Source: Pseudorhodobacter sp. PARRP1
Lineage (GTDB): Bacteria; Pseudomonadota; Alphaproteobacteria; Rhodobacterales; Rhodobacteraceae
Length of the DNA stretch: 64,000 bases
Direction of reading: 5' to 3'
Assembly (NCBI GenBank): GCA_002256245.1
Contig: NKIU01000007.1
Location: 1 to 64,000, forward strand
Below the pieces are notes generated by a model, which worked only from the letters and a program-made list of their open reading frames with translations, was not told where the DNA came from and searched no databases. The position numbers were made by a program, and so were the translations under genes. How positions within the stretch are numbered: position 1 is the stretch's first letter; each line of letters begins with the position of its first letter. Shown here in pieces: positions 1 to 63,430 of the stretch.

Positions 1-66
1 TTTCAGGGCGGCGTTGTAGGAGCGCCAGTTCGTAGTGCGGTAGGTCGGGGGTGTGGGCCTGCTCAT
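1..66 (-). CDS. IS5-family transposase, N-terminal 22 residues (partial at window edge)
   Basis: Reading the reverse strand from ATG at 66 gives MSRPTPPTYRTTNWRSYNAA and then LK before the window ends. This start matches the well-known N-terminus of IS5-group transposases abundant in Rhodobacteraceae, in which a fixed pattern rich in Pro, Thr and Tyr is followed by NW..YN.ALK. Only the N-terminal tail is present, so the DDE catalytic domain cannot be assessed. The gene reads away from mipZ. Confidence 0.65.
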   Translation of the reverse strand, partial: MSRPTPPTYRTTNWRSYNAALK

Positions 67-7327: not shown

Positions 7328-7972
7328 ATGACACGCCAGCTCGACTACCCCGCCATGCAGCGCATTTTCACCCGGTTTCAGGCCTTGGAGGCCGAGCCGA
7401 AGGGTGAGTTGGAACACACCAACGCCTTCACGCTGGTGGTGGCCGTGGCGCTGTCGGCGCAGGCGACGGATGTTGGCGTGAACAAGGCCACACGCAAGCT
7501 GTTTCAAATCGCCGATACCCCCGCCAAGATGCTGGCTTTGGGCGAGGAAGGCGTGATCGAGCACATCAAGACCATCGGGCTTTACCGCAACAAGGCCAAG
7601 AACGTGATCAAGCTCAGCCAGCTTCTGATCGACAATTTCGGCGGCGAGGTGCCCTCCAGCCGCGCGGCCTTGGTGTCGTTGCCCGGCGTGGGGCGCAAGA
7701 CCGCGAATGTGGTGCTGAACATGTGGTTCGGCCAGCCATCGCAGGCGGTGGATACGCATATTTTCCGGCTGGGCAATCGCTCTGGCATCGCCCCCGGCAA
7801 GGACGAAACCGCGGTAGAGCGCGCCATTGAAGACAACGTCCCCGCCGAGTTTCAACGCCACGCCCATCACTGGCTAATCCTGCACGGGCGGTATATCTGC
7901 ATCGCGCGCAAACCCAAATGCGGCATCTGCCCAATCGCGGATGACTGCCTGTTCGAGGAAAAGACCCAATGA
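7328..7972 (+). CDS. nth: Endonuclease III (DNA glycosylase/AP lyase)
   Basis: This 214-residue enzyme removes oxidised pyrimidines and cleaves AP sites in base-excision repair. The helix-hairpin-helix LPGVGRKTANVVL contains the catalytic Lys, and the catalytic Asp is in QAVDTHIFRL. The C-terminus carries the iron-sulfur cluster ligands in the pattern C-x6-C-x2-C-x5-C. The start at 7328 is favoured by the usual length; an in-frame ATG at 7289 would add 13 atypical residues. The stop overlaps the next gene start in an ATGA arrangement. Confidence 0.93.
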   Translation: MTRQLDYPAMQRIFTRFQALEAEPKGELEHTNAFTLVVAVALSAQATDVGVNKATRKLFQIADTPAKMLALGEEGVIEHIKTIGLYRNKAKNVIKLSQLLIDNFGGEVPSSRAALVSLPGVGRKTANVVLNMWFGQPSQAVDTHIFRLGNRSGIAPGKDETAVERAIEDNVPAEFQRHAHHWLILHGRYICIARKPKCGICPIADDCLFEEKTQ

Positions 7973-8952
7973 AACGCTATCAGGTTGTCGGCATCGGCAA
8001 TGCGATTGTGGATGTGTTCGCCCAAGCCGATGACAGCTTTCTTGAGATGATGGGCATCGAAAAAGGCATCATGCAACTGGTCGAGCGCGAGCGTGGCGAG
8101 CTTTTGTATGCCGCGATGAAAGACCGCGTGCAGGCGCCGGGTGGGTCGGTGGCAAACACGCTGGCGGGTCTGGGCAATCTCGGCCTGACCACGGCGTTCA
8201 TTGGCCGGGTGCATGACGACGCGTTGGGGCGGTTCTATGCGACCTCGATGGCCGCAGGCGGCACCGATTTCGTCAATGCTCCGGTGCCAGGCGGGGAGTT
8301 GCCAACCTCGCGCTCGATGATCTTCGTCGCCCCGGATGGGGAGCGGTCGATGAACACCTATCTTGGCATCTCCTCGGAACTCGGGCCAGAGGATGTCTCG
8401 GACGCGGTCGCGGGCGATGCGGCGGTGCTGTTCCTTGAAGGCTATCTCTACGACAAGCCCAAGGGGATGCAGGCGTTTGAGCGGGCGGCGAAGCTTTGCC
8501 AAGCGGCGGGCGGGCAGGCGGGGATCGCGCTGTCAGACCCGTTCTGCGTGGACCGGCACCGCGGCGATTTCCGTCGGCTGGTCAAGGATCTGGATTACGT
8601 GATCGGGAACGAGCATGAATGGGCCAGCCTGTATCAGACCGATCTGGATGCGGCTTTGAAGCAGGCGGCGGCAGAGGTTGGGTTGATCGCCTGCACCCGC
8701 TCGGGCGATGAGGTGATCGTGATCCGGGGCGACGAACGCGCCGTGGTTCCGGTGCGCCGGGTGGTGCCTGTCGATGCCACCGGGGCGGGCGATCAGTTCG
8801 CGGCGGGGTTCCTCTATGGCATCGCCACGGGTCGGTCGTTGGAGATTTCGGGCCGGATGGGCTGCGTTGCGGCGGCCGAGGTGATCGGGCATTTCGGGGC
8901 GCGGCCTGAGGCTAATCTGGCAGATTTGTTTGCAGGCGAGGGGCTGATTTAA
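7969..8952 (+). CDS. PfkB-family kinase, adenosine kinase-like
   Basis: The 327-residue ribokinase-fold enzyme has the N-terminal glycine-rich strand (QAPGGSVANTLAGLGNLGL) and the C-terminal PfkB signature DATGAGDQFAAGF with the catalytic Asp. Overall arrangement (GNAIVDVFAQADD at the N-terminus) matches the proteobacterial adenosine kinase/2-dehydro-3-deoxygluconokinase group, in which adenosine kinase is the usual annotation. It is translationally coupled to nth by a 4-nt overlap. Substrate cannot be fixed from sequence alone; nucleoside is the most likely. Confidence 0.85.
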   Translation: MKRYQVVGIGNAIVDVFAQADDSFLEMMGIEKGIMQLVERERGELLYAAMKDRVQAPGGSVANTLAGLGNLGLTTAFIGRVHDDALGRFYATSMAAGGTDFVNAPVPGGELPTSRSMIFVAPDGERSMNTYLGISSELGPEDVSDAVAGDAAVLFLEGYLYDKPKGMQAFERAAKLCQAAGGQAGIALSDPFCVDRHRGDFRRLVKDLDYVIGNEHEWASLYQTDLDAALKQAAAEVGLIACTRSGDEVIVIRGDERAVVPVRRVVPVDATGAGDQFAAGFLYGIATGRSLEISGRMGCVAAAEVIGHFGARPEANLADLFAGEGLI

Positions 8953-8956
8953 CGGC

Positions 8957-8973
8957 GGTCCCAACTCGGGACC
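8957..8973. promoter_or_regulatory. Palindrome GGTCCC-AACTC-GGGACC, copy A of a composite element
   Basis: The 6-bp arms lie 5 nt after the kinase stop. The exact 17-mer recurs at 60150-60166 and an equivalent with another loop occurs at 29256-29272. In all three the palindrome is followed 39-40 nt later by a CtrA-like box. It may act as a terminator hairpin here, but the following bases are AAATTT and not a T-run. Confidence 0.6.
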
Positions 8974-9013
8974 AAATTTAATATATATAAATCAATGTGA
9001 TAGCCCCATAGAT

Positions 9014-9028
9014 TTAAGGTTTCGTTAA
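9014..9028. promoter_or_regulatory. CtrA-type box TTAA-N7-TTAA (copy A)
   Basis: TTAAGGTTTCGTTAA matches the full CtrA consensus of alphaproteobacteria. A near-identical box is at 60206-60220 and a one-mismatch version at 29313-29327, each at the same distance from a GGTCCC/GGGACC palindrome. Confidence 0.55.
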
Positions 9029-9050: not shown

Positions 9051-9138
9051 GTTTCATCTGTTCTTAAATATCCCCGCCGGAGGCTTCTTACGCCAATATC
9101 GGAAGCCTCCGGCGGGGATATTTAAGAACAGATGAAAC
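9051..9138. repeat. Long inverted repeat with 37-bp arms (CCTCCGGCGGGGATATTT family)
   Basis: Arms 9051-9087 and 9102-9138 are perfect complements around a 14-nt loop. The core GCCTCCGGCGGGGATATTTA recurs at 60255-60340 (33-bp arms), as one arm at 22886-22907, and as a variant with AGTATTTAGG at 27752-27823. All are intergenic. As RNA it would form a very stable hairpin, so transcription termination or RNA 3'-end protection is likely. Confidence 0.8.
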
Positions 9139-29255: not shown

Positions 29256-29272
29256 GGTCCCGCGTTGGGACC
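29256..29272. promoter_or_regulatory. Palindrome GGTCCC-GCGTT-GGGACC, copy C of the composite element
   Basis: Arms are identical to copies A and B, the loop differs. It lies 81 nt upstream of the gshA start on the reverse strand, and a CtrA-like box follows 40 nt further on. Confidence 0.55.
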
Positions 29273-29312
29273 AAAATGATCTGCTTTAAGATCAATGGCT
29301 TGAAAAAATGCG

Positions 29313-29327
29313 TTCAGGAATTGTTAA
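29313..29327. promoter_or_regulatory. CtrA-like box TTCA-N7-TTAA (copy C)
   Basis: TTCAGGAATTGTTAA has one mismatch to TTAA-N7-TTAA. It overlaps the stop codon of the upstream membrane-protein gene. Its spacing to the palindrome equals that of copy A. Confidence 0.4.
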
Positions 29328-29896
29328 GCATTTTCCGGCAAATCGGGCCGATTTTGCCCCGGCAGGGCGGCGGCTGTCTTGCGGTGCCAGATGGTTTGCG
29401 TGGTGGCGGCAAGGCTAAGCACGGTGCTGCCGGTGCTGGGGCTTGGGTCTAGCGCGCTGACAAGGGCAAGCGTGTTCATACCCGGCAGGCTGGCGAAAGC
29501 GTCGAACAATTTGTCGGCCCCGCTGGCATCGACCGGGATCAGCAAGGCCTGCCCATCGGCCTGTTTCAAGCGCCACACCCGGCGACCGCGCAAGCTGAGC
29601 AGGCGCAGTTCGACCAGTTCGGGGATCGAGACATAGCCGCCGCTTTGCGGGCCAAGATAGCCGATCTGGCCTTCATCGACCTCGACCACGCCCGGCGAGT
29701 CGATGGTTTGCACAAAGCGCAGGCGGCGCAGCGCAAGGATGCCCCACGCCACGCCAAAGGCCGCAATCGCGGTGCCGACGGGGGTGAGGAGGTAGCCGCC
29801 AAGCACGATCAGCCAGAGGCCAAACGCCAGCACGGCGAGGGCCCAAAGCACCTCGGAAAAGCGGCGGAGCAGGGCGATAAACTCGGGGCGGATCAT
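29324..29896 (-). CDS. Membrane protein, 190 residues, unknown function
   Basis: Two membrane helices (about residues 14-34 and 37-55) are followed by a cytoplasmic domain with IDSPGVVEVDEGQIGYLGPQ and a beta-rich stretch (ISIPELVELRLLSL-like), resembling PH-like membrane-associated domains but not conclusively. The start codon at 29896 overlaps the GNAT gene stop in ATGA fashion. It is the last gene of the rsmE-GNAT operon. Confidence 0.7.
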   Translation of the reverse strand: MIRPEFIALLRRFSEVLWALAVLAFGLWLIVLGGYLLTPVGTAIAAFGVAWGILALRRLRFVQTIDSPGVVEVDEGQIGYLGPQSGGYVSIPELVELRLLSLRGRRVWRLKQADGQALLIPVDASGADKLFDAFASLPGMNTLALVSALDPSPSTGSTVLSLAATTQTIWHRKTAAALPGQNRPDLPENA

Positions 29897-30729
29897 GCGG
29901 CGACCTGCTGGCTTTGGGTGAACAGGATCAGCGCAAAACTGTGGCTGGGGCGAAATCCGATGGCAAGATAGGCGCGGGCGGCGGCTTGGCTGGCGGCGAA
30001 CAGCACCGCGCGCTTGCAGCCCTGTTGCCGCGCCTCGGCCAAGATCATCGCAACGGCGCGGCGGGCGTGGCCGTGGTTGCGCAGCGCGGGCGGGGTATAG
30101 ACGCCGCCGATCTGCACGGCCTGCGCGGTTTGGGCGTTGAAGCCTGCGATGGCCACCGGCTGATCGGCCTGCCACAGGATGCGGTGACGCCCCTCGGCCT
30201 GCCAGCGGTGCACCTGATCGTGCGCGATCAGCGGGGCGTCTTGCGGCGCAAAGCCCATGGTTTCAACCAAGGCGGCGGCGCGCCACTGGATCACCAGCGC
30301 CAAGTCAGCCGAAAGCGGGGTCAGGCGAAAGCCATCAGCGGGGGGCAAGATAAGATCGGCCAGATCAAGGGAAAAGCCGGGCTCGACGGCTTGCATCCGC
30401 AGGGGTGCTTCATCAAGGCCCAGCGCGTGTTGCAGCGCCTTGCATTGGGCGGGCGGGCCGATCAGGCCTGCGATGGCGCGCTCTGCCAGCCACGGGCGGA
30501 CCAGCGACCAATCGGCATCAGGCGCTTGCGGCATCAGGCGGTGATCGGCGGTCAGGCCAAGATAGCCGGTGATATGGGGGCCGGTTTGGAACAGCCAGTT
30601 TTCGGTTTTCGGCCCATGGCCCAGCAGGTTGTGCATCGGAAACATCGAACCCGCTTCGTGCTGTGCCAGAAAGCCAAGCAGGGCGGGGGTGTCTTTTGGC
30701 GTGGCGGGGCGCAGGATTGCGGCGGTCAT
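29893..30729 (-). CDS. GNAT-family N-acetyltransferase
   Basis: The 278-residue protein has a C-terminal GNAT fold with the acetyl-CoA pyrophosphate-binding stretch VYTPPALRNHGHARRAVAMIL (Q/R-x-x-G-x-A-like: RNHGHA) and the terminal beta-bulge segment AYLAIGFRPSHSFALILF. The N-terminal half is a second, degenerate acetyltransferase-like domain. Substrate unknown. ATG at 30729 overlaps the rsmE stop by 4 nt. Confidence 0.8.
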   Translation of the reverse strand: MTAAILRPATPKDTPALLGFLAQHEAGSMFPMHNLLGHGPKTENWLFQTGPHITGYLGLTADHRLMPQAPDADWSLVRPWLAERAIAGLIGPPAQCKALQHALGLDEAPLRMQAVEPGFSLDLADLILPPADGFRLTPLSADLALVIQWRAAALVETMGFAPQDAPLIAHDQVHRWQAEGRHRILWQADQPVAIAGFNAQTAQAVQIGGVYTPPALRNHGHARRAVAMILAEARQQGCKRAVLFAASQAAARAYLAIGFRPSHSFALILFTQSQQVAA

Positions 30730-58771: not shown

Positions 58772-59365
58772 ATGGCAAAAAGCGAAGATGCACAAATGAT
58801 CGTGAAACCGCTGGCCGAAGGGATGGCTGCGGTGCAGGCGGCCGCGAAAAAAGGCCCGCCGCCGGTGCATCTGTGGAACCCGCCGTTTTGCGGCGACATT
58901 GATATGCGGATCGCGCGGGACGGGACGTGGTTTCACGAAGGCTCGCCGATTGGCCGCGCGCCGATGGTGAAGCTGTTTTCGTCGATTCTGCGGCGTGAAG
59001 GGGATGCGTTTTTCCTTGTGACGCCGGTGGAAAAGGTGCGCATCCGGGTGGATGATGCGCCAATGCTGGCGGTGGATTTTGACGTGGAAGGCACGGGGCG
59101 GGATCAGCGCCTGCGGTTTTTCACCAAGACCGAGGATGAGGTGGTCGCCAGTGCTGAAAATCCGATCCGCGTGGTGATGGGGGCAGGGGGGGAGCCTTCG
59201 CCTTACGTGCATGTCCGCGCTGGGCTGGAGGCGCTGATTGACCGCAAATCGTTCTATCGGTTGATGGAACTGGGGGTGCATGAGGATCGCTGCGGGGCAA
59301 GCTGGTTCGGGCTTTGGTCAGATGGGTGTTTCTTTCCGGTCATTCCTTCGCTAGACCTGCGCTGA
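58772..59365 (+). CDS. DUF1285 family protein
   Basis: The 197-residue protein has the family pattern: PPVHLWNPPFCGDIDMRIARDGTWFHEGSPIGRAPMVKLFSSIL (in parts: NPPFCGDIDM and DGTWFHEGSPIGR), then LVTPVEKVRIRVDD and WFGLWSDGCFFPVI. Function unknown. ATG 58772 is used; ATG 58745 is equally possible and would lie close to a leaderless start. Its stop overlaps the next start (TGATG). Confidence 0.87.
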   Translation: MAKSEDAQMIVKPLAEGMAAVQAAAKKGPPPVHLWNPPFCGDIDMRIARDGTWFHEGSPIGRAPMVKLFSSILRREGDAFFLVTPVEKVRIRVDDAPMLAVDFDVEGTGRDQRLRFFTKTEDEVVASAENPIRVVMGAGGEPSPYVHVRAGLEALIDRKSFYRLMELGVHEDRCGASWFGLWSDGCFFPVIPSLDLR

Positions 59366-60141
59366 TGCCTAATTTTGCCGCCAACCTGACCATGCTTTTT
59401 ACCGAGGTTTCCGCCCTCGACCGCCCCGGCTTGGCCGCGCAGGCGGGGTTTGATGGTGCGGAAATCCTGTTCCCCTATGACCACTCGGCCAAGGAATGGG
59501 AGACCGCACTCGCGGGTCTGCCGCTGGCGATGATCAACACGCCGCCGGGGGATTGGGCGGCGGGGGATCGGGGGTTTGCCGCCGTGCCGGGCGAGGAGAG
59601 CCGGTTTCGCGACGGGTTCCTGCGGGCGGCAGAGCTTGCGTCTCGGCTGGGGGCGGCGCGGGTGCATGTGATGGCTGGGGTCGCCAAGGGGCCGCAGGCG
59701 GAGCAGGTTTATACCGAGAATTTGGCCTGGGCCGCGGCACAGGCGCCGGATTTGCTGCTGACGCTGGAGCCTTTGAACCCGGATGACATGCCGGGGTATT
59801 TCCTGAACGACTTTGATCAGGCGGGGCGGATTGTCGATGATCTGGGGCTGGCGCAGGTTGGTATCCAGTTTGATCTGTGGCACGCCGCTAGAATTCATGG
59901 CGATGCGGCGGGGGTTTGGGCCAAGCATGGGCCCCGGGTCAATCATGTGCAGATTTCGGGCTTTCCAAGCCGGAACGAGCCGGGCGGTGGCGGATTTGAT
60001 CTGACCGGGCTTTGCGCGACCTTGGATGAGGGCGGCTATCAGGGTTGGGTTTCGGCGGAGTATCGGCCCGCGCGTGCCACGGTGCATGGGCTGGCCTGGC
60101 TGGGGGCCTTGAAGGCGCGGTCGCGGTTGATCGGGGCCTGA
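59365..60141 (+). CDS. hyi: Hydroxypyruvate isomerase family TIM-barrel protein
   Basis: The 258-residue sugar-isomerase-like protein has NFAANLTMLFTE at the N-terminus, the metal and catalytic Glu in TLEPLNPDDMPGYFLND, QFDLWHAARIHGD, VNHVQISGFPSRNEP and the second catalytic Glu in GWVSAEYRP. This matches the Hyi/OtnI group. It converts hydroxypyruvate or a related keto acid. Translationally coupled to DUF1285. Links to glycolate/glyoxylate metabolism (glcDEF 8 kb away) are suggestive only. Confidence 0.88.
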   Translation: MPNFAANLTMLFTEVSALDRPGLAAQAGFDGAEILFPYDHSAKEWETALAGLPLAMINTPPGDWAAGDRGFAAVPGEESRFRDGFLRAAELASRLGAARVHVMAGVAKGPQAEQVYTENLAWAAAQAPDLLLTLEPLNPDDMPGYFLNDFDQAGRIVDDLGLAQVGIQFDLWHAARIHGDAAGVWAKHGPRVNHVQISGFPSRNEPGGGGFDLTGLCATLDEGGYQGWVSAEYRPARATVHGLAWLGALKARSRLIGA

Positions 60142-60149
60142 TCGGGCGT

Positions 60150-60172
60150 GGTCCCAACTCGGGACCTTTTTT
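60150..60172 (+). terminator. Palindrome GGTCCC-AACTC-GGGACC followed by T6, copy B
   Basis: The 17-bp palindrome is identical to copy A and is followed by six T residues, 9 nt past the hyi stop, so here it fits a Rho-independent terminator. The CtrA box at 60206 still follows at the same spacing as in the other copies. Confidence 0.65.
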
Positions 60173-60205
60173 ATCGTTTAGATACAACAGCATAGACCTG
60201 TCATT

Positions 60206-60220
60206 TTAAGGTTTTGTTAA
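60206..60220. promoter_or_regulatory. CtrA-type box TTAA-N7-TTAA (copy B)
   Basis: TTAAGGTTTTGTTAA is a full match to the CtrA consensus and differs from copy A at one spacer base. It lies in a convergent intergenic region, 39 nt after the palindrome. Confidence 0.5.
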
Positions 60221-60254: not shown

Positions 60255-60340
60255 TTTCATCCGTTCTTAAATATCCCCGCCGGAGGCATCCGACATTGGC
60301 CAAAGGAGCCTCCGGCGGGGATATTTAAGAACGGATGAAA
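60255..60340. repeat. Inverted repeat with 33-bp arms (CCTCCGGCGGGGATATTT family)
   Basis: Arms 60255-60287 and 60308-60340 are perfect complements around a 20-nt loop. It is 92% like the arms at 9051-9138 by eye. It follows the CtrA box in the same order as at copy A. Confidence 0.8.
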
Positions 60341-60415: not shown

Positions 60416-63400
60416 TCAATGCTCGGGCAGCAGGATCTCGCGTTTGCCGACGTGGTTGGCGGCGCTGATCACCGAGTGTTCTTCCATCTGTTCCACCAAC
60501 TTCGCGGCCTTGTTATAGCCGATGCCGAGTTTGCGCTGGATATAAGAGGTCGAGCATTTGCGGTCTTTGGCGACGATGGCGACGGCTTGGTCATACAGGC
60601 TGTCATCTAGGCCATCGGAGCCGAGGCCCAGCAGGCTGTCGATTTCAGCGGCGTTTTCATCCTCGGGGCCTTCGATCACGCCAGACATATAGACCGGCGG
60701 GCCGTAGGATTTCAGGTGGTTGACGATTTCTTCGACTTCTTCATCGGAGACAAAAGGCCCGTGGATACGGGACACGCGACCGCCGCCTGCCATGTAGAGC
60801 ATGTCGCCCATGCCCAAGAGTTGTTCGGCACCCTGTTCGCCAAGGATGGTGCGGCTGTCGATCTTTGAGGTGACCTGGAAAGAAATCCGGGTGGGGAAGT
60901 TGGCTTTGATGGTGCCGGTGATCACGTCCACGCTTGGGCGCTGGGTGGCCATGATCAGGTGGATACCGGAGGCGCGGGCCATCTGGGCGAGGCGCTGGAT
61001 GCAGGCTTCGATTTCCTTGCCGGCGACCATCATCAGGTCGGCCATCTCATCGACCACCACCACGATATAGGGGATGGTGACGGGCTGGAATTCATCGGTT
61101 TCAAACATCGGCTCGCCGGTGTCTTCATCGAATCCGGTCTGGATGGTGCGCTTGAACATCTCGTTTTTGGACAGGGCTTCGCGGACGCGGCCATTGTAGC
61201 CTTCGATGTTGCGCACGCCCATTTTCGACATTTTGCGGTAGCGTTCCTCCATCTCGGACACCACCCATTTCAGGGCGACGACGGCCTTTTTCGGGTCGGT
61301 CACGACGGGGGAGAGCAGGTGCGGGATGCCGTCATAGACGGAGAGTTCCAGCATTTTCGGGTCGATCATGATCAGGCGGCATTCCTCGGGCGAGAGTTTG
61401 TAGAGGAGCGACAGGATCATGGTGTTGATGGCGACGGATTTGCCCGAGCCGGTGGTGCCTGCGATCAGCAGGTGGGGCATTTTGGCGAGGTTGGCGACGA
61501 TGGGATCGCCGCCGATGTCTTTGCCAAGCGCGAGGGGCAGCCGCATGTTGCTGTCGCCAAAGTCGCGGGCAGAGATGATTTCGCGCAAGACCACCTTTTC
61601 GCGGGTGGCGTTGGGCAGTTCGATGCCGATCACGGTGCGGCCCGGAACGGTAGAGACGCGGGCGCTGAGGGCGGACATGGAACGGGCGATATCGTCGGCC
61701 AAGCCGATGACGCGCGACGCTTTCAGGCCGGGGGCGGGTTCAAGTTCATACATCGTCACGACCGGGCCGGGGCGGACCGAGACGATTTCGCCTTTGACGC
61801 CGTAATCGTCGAGGACGGATTCCAGCATGCGGGCGTTTTCTTCGAGTGCCTCGTCCGAGAGCGCGTGGCGCTGGACGGACGACGCCGGGGTCAAAAGCGA
61901 CAGGGGCGGGAGTTCGTAGGCAGGGGCGGGATCGTCAAAGCGCAGGCGGGGCTGGGCCTCGGCCGCGGCGCGGGTTGAGGGGGCGACGGGTTTTTTCACC
62001 GCGTGCTGCACGACCGGGCGACGCTCGGCTGCGGGCAGGGGGCGGGGGGCGATGGGCGCGGGGATGTATTCGGCGGGGATGTGGTCGGGTTCGTAGACGT
62101 CGTCGAACGCCACATCTTCGGCGAAATCCTCGGCTGCGTCGTCGTTGAGGGCGAAGCCGTTTTCCTCTGGCAGATCATAGGCTTGATCGTCGGCAGAGGG
62201 TGCGAATGCGTTGTGCAGCGGGGCTGTGGGGGCAATCACCGGAGGCTCGATCCGCTGGAGCGGGCGGGTGTCGGCGATCAGCGGTTTCGGGCCGCGCGGG
62301 CGTTGCAGGGGCGGCTCGCGGCGCTGGATGGCGGCGGCGAGGGGGGAAAGCTGCGCTTCGGGCGGGCGGGTGCGCGAGCGGATGGCATCGGAGATCCGCG
62401 ATTTGATGCGGTCGTCAGACGGCATGTCGGCGTGATCGGCGGAATAGGCGAGGATCGGCTCGATCAGTTCGGGTTCGGGATCGACGGCGCGGCGCATCAG
62501 GGCGGGCATCCGGGCCAGCAGGCCGAGTTTTTCGCGCGGGGGGGCGTATTGCGCGGCCTCGGCCAGCGGTTCGGCATAGCGGGCGTCGGCGCGCAGGGTG
62601 CTGGGGCGACCGAAGGCGGCGGGGGCCTCGACGGCGGGTTCGGCGCGGTGGATCGGGGTGGCGGCGCGGTCTTCGCGCCAATCGGCGGGGGCGCGCAGGG
62701 TGGCGTCGGGGTGGGCGGCTTCGGCGGCGGCGCGTTTGCGGCGGGCATGGATGGCGGCGGCCGCGCGGGTTGTGCCTTCGGCACCCTTGCCAGCCGCGCC
62801 CAGCAGGATGGCATAGGTGGTGATCAGGCTGGTGATCAGAAAGCGGAAGGCGGCTTGGATTTCCGGGAAGTTGAAGCCGGTGACGAACAAAAGCAGGGCG
62901 ATCATCGCGCCGCCCGACGCCAGCGAGATCAGTTTCAGCCCGATGGCCGAGGTGCCGGGGATGATGTTCATCAGCGCGCCCACCACGGTGTCGCCGAACA
63001 GACCGCCCATGCCAAAGCTGTGCACCCACATCGCCGAGGGCAGCAGCGTGGCGGCATAGACCGAGGCCATGGCGACGGCGATCACGGCGAAAACCATGCG
63101 CGAGATTGCCCGCTCGGCCCCGCGGTGCAGCACAAAGCGCAGGCCCCAAGCGGCGAGGATCAGCGGGATGGCCCAAGCGCCTTTGCCGCCGATGATCATC
63201 AGGGTGGAGGCGAGGGCTGCGCCAAAGCGGCCCAAGGTGTTGGCGGCGGGTTCATCGGTGGCGACCATCCAGCCGGGGTCTTCGGGTGAATAGCTGCCCA
63301 GCATCAGCAGGAAGGCGAAAGCGCCCAGGATCAGTGCGATGCCCAAAAGCTCGCGGCCCCGGCGTTCCAGCATGGCTGTGGTGCCTTGGTCGAGAAGCGG

Positions 63401-63430
63401 ATCGCGTTGCCGTGCTTGATAAGATGCCAT
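60416..63430 (-). CDS. ftsK: DNA translocase FtsK
   Basis: The 1004-residue protein has an N-terminal domain of four or five membrane helices (about residues 25-215), a long Pro/Ala/Arg-rich linker (about 215-510), the RecA-like motor with Walker [14 protein letters not shown] near residue 660 and Walker [13 protein letters not shown], and a C-terminal gamma winged helix ([37 protein letters not shown]). It pumps DNA at the septum and activates XerCD at dif. The KOPS-reading gamma domain is intact. Confidence 0.96.

Follow-up and report, generated by a model that had tools for sequence, protein, structure and literature searches.

An intergenic composite of a palindrome, an IHF-like site and a TTAA-N7-TTAA box in some Rhodobacteraceae: a possible architectural DNA site with a fast-changing recognition module

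Pseudorhodobacter sp. PARRP1 and some other Rhodobacteraceae carry a repeated intergenic composite of about 85 nt, which we tentatively read as an architectural nucleoprotein site that acts at the DNA level and has a fast-changing recognition module. We give this reading, which is built on sequence comparison, a probability of about 0.47, i.e., slightly below even odds. The composite consists of a recognition module of 16-19 bp (palindromic in most lineages read), an IHF-like site that follows the module at 15-18 nt and a TTAA-N7-TTAA box that follows it at 39-42 nt. IHF is predicted to bend the DNA near the midpoint of the stretch from module to box. The bend would bring a protein that recognizes the module sequence against the protein on the box, which may be CtrA or another TTAA binder, and a loop or an insulator between neighbouring transcription units could result. 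The module sequence would follow a lineage-specific protein with changed specificity, with dozens of sites per genome changing along. That proteins bind to DNA at this unit on a common scaffold had also been proposed in a sequence-only reading of the window, i.e., the whole stretch of 64,000 nucleotides analysed here, which is the start of contig C3 of the PARRP1 genome (G000), and our best reading would agree with it on this point.

Allowing up to two mismatches, the window contains three GGTCCC-N5-GGGACC palindromes and no others, at exactly the places from which the sequence-only reading had started (8957, 29256 and 60150). With a shuffle mean of 4.5 this number is not enriched; the excess over chance comes from the exact palindrome matches, the genome count and the linked TTAA box. 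The exact TTAA-N7-TTAA box occurs only twice in the window, at a distance of 40 nt behind the palindrome at 8957 and of 39 nt behind that at 60150 (0.03 expected). The pairing claimed for three sites is exact at these two; at 29256 the box reads TTCA-N7-TTAA. Rfam gave no match in the window at gathering score. The three copies are composed as follows.

8957..8973, + strand: copy A, palindrome GGTCCC-AACTC-GGGACC, 4 nt past the stop codon of a PfkB-family kinase gene (7969-8952)
8974..8979, + strand: copy A, A/T tract AAATTT
8990..9002, + strand: copy A, IHF-consensus-like site AATCAATGTGATA, 8/9 specified positions
9014..9028, + strand: copy A, TTAA-N7-TTAA (CtrA-type full site)
29256..29272, + strand: copy B, palindrome GGTCCC-GCGTT-GGGACC with a class B loop, about 80 nt upstream of a - strand GCS2-family gene
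29290..29302, + strand: copy B, IHF-consensus-like site GATCAATGGCTTG, 8/9
29313..29327, + strand: copy B, TTCA-N7-TTAA, 7/8, overlapping the stop codon of the - strand ORF 29324-30175
60150..60166, + strand: copy C, palindrome GGTCCC-AACTC-GGGACC, 8 nt past the stop codon of an AP_endonuc_2-family gene (59314-60141)
60167..60172, + strand: copy C, A/T tract TTTTTT
60182..60194, + strand: copy C, weak IHF-like site, 6/9
60206..60220, + strand: copy C, TTAA-N7-TTAA; ftsK (60416-63430, - strand) lies downstream, directly behind the copy

A genome-wide search, suggested from the window alone, finds GGTCCC-N5-GGGACC 89 times in the 4,351,260-base (4.35-Mb) genome and the reversed-pattern control not once. 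The copies were oriented by the better combined score for the IHF-like site and the TTAA box. In 84 of the 89 the composite starts at the palindrome, which is followed by an often A/T-rich stretch, a site resembling the IHF consensus and the TTAA-N7-TTAA box. The IHF consensus is WATCAANNNNTTR, often with an A/T tract upstream. A site of this kind scores 8-9/9 at +15..18 in 67 of the 84 copies and the box 7-8/8 at +39..42 in 79 of them. Arms shuffled by single bases over 300 rounds reached at most 2 copies for the IHF-like site and 4 for the TTAA box; the choice of orientation was not repeated in these rounds, which could at most roughly double such small control counts. A chance origin is ruled out by the genome count, the empty reversed control, the linked box and the shuffle maxima, and palindrome and box are one unit of near-fixed spacing, as had been claimed, and not a coincidence of random frequency. 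In the literature searched, to which most subscription papers did not belong, we found no description of the element.

Read with the arm to the right, the loop is AACTC in 64 of the 89 copies, GCGTT in 8, GAGTT in 5, AACGC in 4 and another sequence in 8. The 59 copies of class A (loop AACTC) and the 25 of class B (other loops) share one arm, in which the IHF-like block scores best at offsets of 15-18 and the box at 39-42, with 22-24 between block and box. Class A copies continue behind the palindrome with a tract of 5-6 nt, about 10 nt of other sequence, ATCAATGGCTTR and then a block like TTTAAGGATTTGTTAAC; the tract is mostly T in 35 of the 59 copies, mostly A in 9 and mixed in 15. The statement that the sequence between the two motifs is not conserved had to be dropped, as a WATCAANNNNTTR-like block stands at a near-fixed place in the 84 genomic copies and an A/T tract in the 59 of class A. 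The spacing of 39-40 nt frames an element of three parts, with a predicted bend site midway. The picture of two proteins on the same face of the DNA, four helical turns apart, had overlooked this IHF-like site and is wrong, because IHF would fold the DNA between the two motifs. The five copies of class C have the palindrome and then a different sequence without the usual arm. At the class C loci (L024, L149, L167, L169 and L177 in the own genome, plus L108, L077, L103, L050 and L073) a ATTGTTTTCAT-like sequence, often with GGTTAA boxes, stands behind the palindrome, which can occupy another arm.

With genes called by a simple codon-usage caller, a non-standard annotator, 88 of the 89 palindromes fall outside called genes. 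The palindrome stands between convergent genes in 43 cases, between tandem genes in 35 and between divergent genes in 9; one copy overlaps a gene end and one is unclassified. Of the neighbouring gene pairs in the window, 22-31% are convergent, a share that varies with the choice of gap. At 60 copies a gene reads towards the palindrome, and 51 of these copies begin 0-12 nt past its stop codon. The start side of a gene faces the module in 28/89 copies, and in 8/89 the 68-nt arm already contains the start of the next called gene.

The copies are spaced fairly evenly. Intervals within contigs have a mean of 40.7 kb and a CV of 0.64 vs 0.94 under uniform placement, and none of 5000 simulations was as even; conditional on the first and last site of each contig, P is 0.0002 in the own genome and likewise in G005 (65 of 66 exact sites, contigs with at least three sites). 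In G007 the evenness is not significant (P 0.13), and no interval is shorter than 10 kb (2.9 expected, P 0.04). As the three genomes share positions, these tests are dependent. The result for G007 and the poor IHF match of copy C count against the architectural reading. Fifteen contigs of G000 with together 424 kb (C1, C2, C4, C9, C11-C15, C18, C19, C21, C22, C25 and C26) hold no exact palindrome, where 8.7 would be expected (P 1.7e-4); four small ones among them, C1, C12, C25 and C26, contain no G or C and probably represent withheld sequence. These contigs are possibly plasmids or islands: ten of their proteins include a transposase and a tyrosine recombinase, and when 45 of the 74 called proteins were scanned against Pfam, the 25 families listed, out of 80, included none for replication or partition. 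It is a rather doubtful further step that some Rhodobacteraceae mark their chromosome by IHF-bent sites about 40 kb apart, and that the specificity of the reader protein would have changed repeatedly, dozens of sites being rewritten in concert with positions and the rest of the element kept.

Among 61 genomes the palindrome is abundant in the own genus only, with 13-89 copies in 7 of its 15 genomes; the other 8 have 0-1 copies and the 46 genomes outside the genus 0-2. An exact-pattern scan of named genomes gave at least 91 stretches. Of those listed, 85 belong to Cypionkella psychrotolerans, C. aquatica, a Cypionkella MAG, a Rhodobacteraceae MAG (WRPH) and a Pseudorhodobacter MAG, and 6 are scattered in other taxa with low arm scores (6-13/17). 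These copies were picked by the exact palindrome, so that its conservation among them is built in; shared places were scored with the element masked. Among the matches listed, 66 of the 85 copies share their place with a copy of the own genome (31 by both flanks), which bears out the expected conservation in related genomes and disfavours a recent mobile element. Among the same matches copy A has a partner in WRPH by both flanks, copy C has one by its right flank and copy B has none; by its left flank copy C also matches copies in G009 and G004 that carry a CCAC-type module. Counting only the best-scoring arm matches, a subset in each genome, and requiring, with the element masked, a minimum of 80 nt of matching nearby flank to one side or both, places are common with an own copy for 31/45 in G009, 24/34 in G004, 11/28 in G003 and 5/17 in G012; G004 and the WRPH MAG are probably the same assembly, so that their counts are dependent. 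A scan of the family with about one genome per genus gave arm hits at E<=1e-4 in at least 16 of 295 genomes, counting the own one; it scored 17 candidates in each genome, so that the number is a minimum. With arm hits in so few of the genomes, the element is inessential. An exact-pattern scan of viral contigs and two element queries against plasmids found nothing. In G213, a single contig of 4,156,044 bases, 12 of the 13 listed arm matches lie on the + strand, which is either a scoring artefact or a real orientation bias.

A model of the arm alone (R1), built from the 59 class A copies with the palindrome left out, matches 101 times in the own genome at E<=1, and 77 times in G009 and 38 times in G012 at E<=0.1. 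Despite these many arms, G009 has one GGTCCC palindrome and G012 none. Other modules take its place, typed here by rough patterns with 'other' kept as a separate row: in G009 they are TGTCCACGYGTGGACA-like in 32/45 and GCTCCCAACTTGGGAGC-like in 8/45 while 5 fit neither, and in G012 they are TGTCCCGGSCCGGGACA-like in 15/17. Distinct rows of G004 show GGTCCC in 24/34 and the CCAC type in 7/34; G003 has GGTCCC in 8/28, other TCCC types in 12/28 and neither in 8/28. Two palindrome types coexist, and the CCAC type lacks the A/T tract. Inside a genome the module is uniform and between genomes it differs, as in G213, where it is GCGTCCCACGRTGGGACGC-like in all 13 copies read, and in G173, where all 11 copies read (of 17 matches) have the non-palindromic module TTCCCCCTGTGTTACA, in either orientation and with some decay. 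The G173 module, non-palindromic and present in both orientations, is easier to reconcile with a protein site than with a hairpin. Further palindromes, GTGTCCACATGTGGACAC, GCGTCCGAGCTTGGACGC, GCGCCGCGCGTGGCGC and ATGTCCCGGGCCGGGACAT, occur in one or a few copies in other genera. At 4 of 18 family loci read (G204, G252, G184 and G294) no comparable module was seen; those of G204 and G184 contain unrelated inverted repeats.

The exchange of modules can be followed behind one gene. We found aroC in all 15 genus genomes; the element stands right behind its stop codon in 9, which are those with many arm hits (38-84), and is absent in 6, which are those with few (1-7). The palindrome at this place is GGTCCC-AACTC in G000, G001, G004, G005, G006 and G007, CTCCC-AACTT-GGGAG in G009, GTCCC-GAGGC-GGGAC in G003 and TGTCCC-GGACG-GGGACA in G012, i.e., four different palindromes behind aroC in one genus. 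Whether the arm was kept meanwhile was judged by its identity to the ortholog, with other own copies of the same class as baseline. At 8 shared TCCC-type loci of G009 the identity is 0.65 vs 0.56 (3/8 partners exceed 95% of their class), and at 20 CCAC-type loci it is 0.505 vs 0.498. In G004 it is 0.61 vs 0.54 at 17 loci with the same palindrome (2/17 above 95%) and 0.49 vs 0.50 at 6 CCAC loci, and G003 (11 loci) and G012 (5 loci) show little or no excess. As the matched baseline leaves a small excess or none, the case for a module change on a kept arm is weakened. Such a change on a vertically kept arm has modest support, at a few loci; at the other shared loci replacement of the whole element, or divergence past recognition, is possible.

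One could take the palindromes for intrinsic terminators of the upstream gene or for hairpins at the 3' end of its mRNA, which is improbable in our view. The typical place right past a stop codon would suit them, the three window copies can fold into hairpins of -11.5 to -13.4 kcal/mol, and a T tract directly follows the hairpin in the 35 class A copies with a mostly T tract. However, the T tract is about as frequent where a gene runs into the hairpin as where none does (23/41 vs 12/18, Fisher P 0.57), 24 of the 59 class A copies have an A or mixed tract instead, the CCAC type has no tract and the G173 module is not a hairpin; around copy A no terminator-like site was found. In addition, a terminator would require no constant sequence and no constant arm following it. 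It is the indifference of the T tract to the direction of transcription, together with the G173 module, which disfavours this explanation. A CtrA-controlled promoter with an operator, close to the promoter plus operator unit of the sequence-only reading, is very improbable. The box at its near-fixed place equals the published CtrA full site in motif and spacing (accessible part of PMC6180460), as had been recognized from the window. Unlike that site, however, it lies mostly away from promoters and is embedded in a composite, and its 3' half is better conserved than its 5' half, the first half being loose (TTNA) in class B. Of the 87 classifiable copies 43 lie between convergent and only 9 between divergent genes, and no sigma-70-type promoter was found around copy A.

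The strongest rival is a RAYT-driven REP: a selfish repeat that a REP-associated tyrosine transposase (RAYT) spreads or once spread, with the IHF and TTAA parts as mere baggage or as targets of insertion. We rate it as unlikely, though as a serious contender. The own genome encodes one RAYT (NF047646, 133 bits vs a cut-off of 80), and RAYTs occur in 8/9 element-rich genus genomes vs 2/6 element-free ones; in G012, which is 82% complete, none was found. A protein query was needed for these 10/15, as the Y1 transposase family PF01797 alone is too weak (3/15). The element resembles the REP super-families (GTAG, CGTC) as a short palindrome with tens to about 100 copies in intergenic regions at gene ends, a location typical of REPs according to the available part of PMC3733652. 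Whole-element replacement would also predict that arms at shared loci are no closer than unrelated copies, as seen at 20/31 loci of G009. On the other hand, the tag is missing, with GTRG (GTAG/GTGG, whose role in REPs is treated in PMC8266576, as far as accessible) 5' of the hairpin in 3/89 copies and CGTC, TGTC or CCTC in 0/89, and the stem is 6 bp in the own-genome copies vs 8-9 bp in CGTC repeats (same part of PMC3733652). The RAYT genes are not adjacent to copies: at all 10 RAYT loci read, there is no GTCC- or CTCC-type palindrome within about 1.5 kb. When the own RAYT is aligned with TnpAREP (4ER8), Ser replaces the tyrosine that precedes N119 by four residues and Asp replaces N119 itself, both positions belonging to the class pattern (Y---NP and N119; PMC6006769, accessible part), and because of these replacements the protein is probably inactive. 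RAYT distance is not tied to the palindrome either, since the G006 protein is 62% identical to the own one with the same palindrome and the G009 protein 69% with another. The positions common to several species and the G173 module, which is no hairpin, also argue against a REP. In a variant that may apply to the REP and the architectural reading alike, an inactive RAYT would have been retained to bind the palindrome.

The RAYT-like protein, encoded at G000:C28:59483-59971 (L352), is the sole match in the own genome, with relatives at L353-L361. Its upstream and downstream neighbours are the same across the element-rich genomes read. The relatives have residues other than Tyr in the catalytic motif, and the G009 match contains one stop.

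Sites of the matS, Noc and SlmA type mark chromosomes by tens of palindromic protein sites per genome and are not known to include an IHF site or a second box. The element shares their number and palindromic form and differs in that it adds an IHF-like site and a second box. Binding by Noc or another ParB paralogue was considered and set aside: 13 of the 15 genus genomes encode one strong HTH_ParB protein each, so that a strong Noc-like paralogue is not indicated, and four genomes have further weak hits. The names RIB and RIP, from enterobacteria, stand for elements close to BIME-1, the nearest known kind to the composite, which would work similarly if IHF binds. Like these, it is a dispersed intergenic repeat, often at gene 3' ends, that joins a palindrome and an IHF-like site into a unit, IHF being assigned here by motif. 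BIME-1 consists of REP pairs around an IHF site (PMC2817692, in the part accessible), whereas here one palindrome stands in place of two opposed REPs, the TTAA-N7-TTAA box takes the other side and the GTAG tag is missing. The composite is also unlike BIME-1, RIB and RIP in its fairly even spacing and in the different palindromes that species carry behind the same gene.

If the architectural reading holds, an ecologically important family would have a chromosome-wide architectural element, and the swapped modules behind aroC would allow a direct test of how a DNA-binding protein and dozens of its sites coevolve. If the composite is instead of the REP type, it would be an unusual one, untagged, often conserved in position, coupled to a TTAA box as well as an IHF-like site, and accompanied by a RAYT seemingly without its catalytic tyrosine.

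Shortly behind copies A and C the window contains perfect inverted repeats at 9051-9138 (arms of 37 nt) and 60255-60340 (33 nt), with the arm sequence GTTTCATCYGTTCTTAAATATCCCCGCCGGAGGC... Their core CCTCCGGCGGGGATATTT was found in 37 of 367 loci examined and represents a second repeat family.
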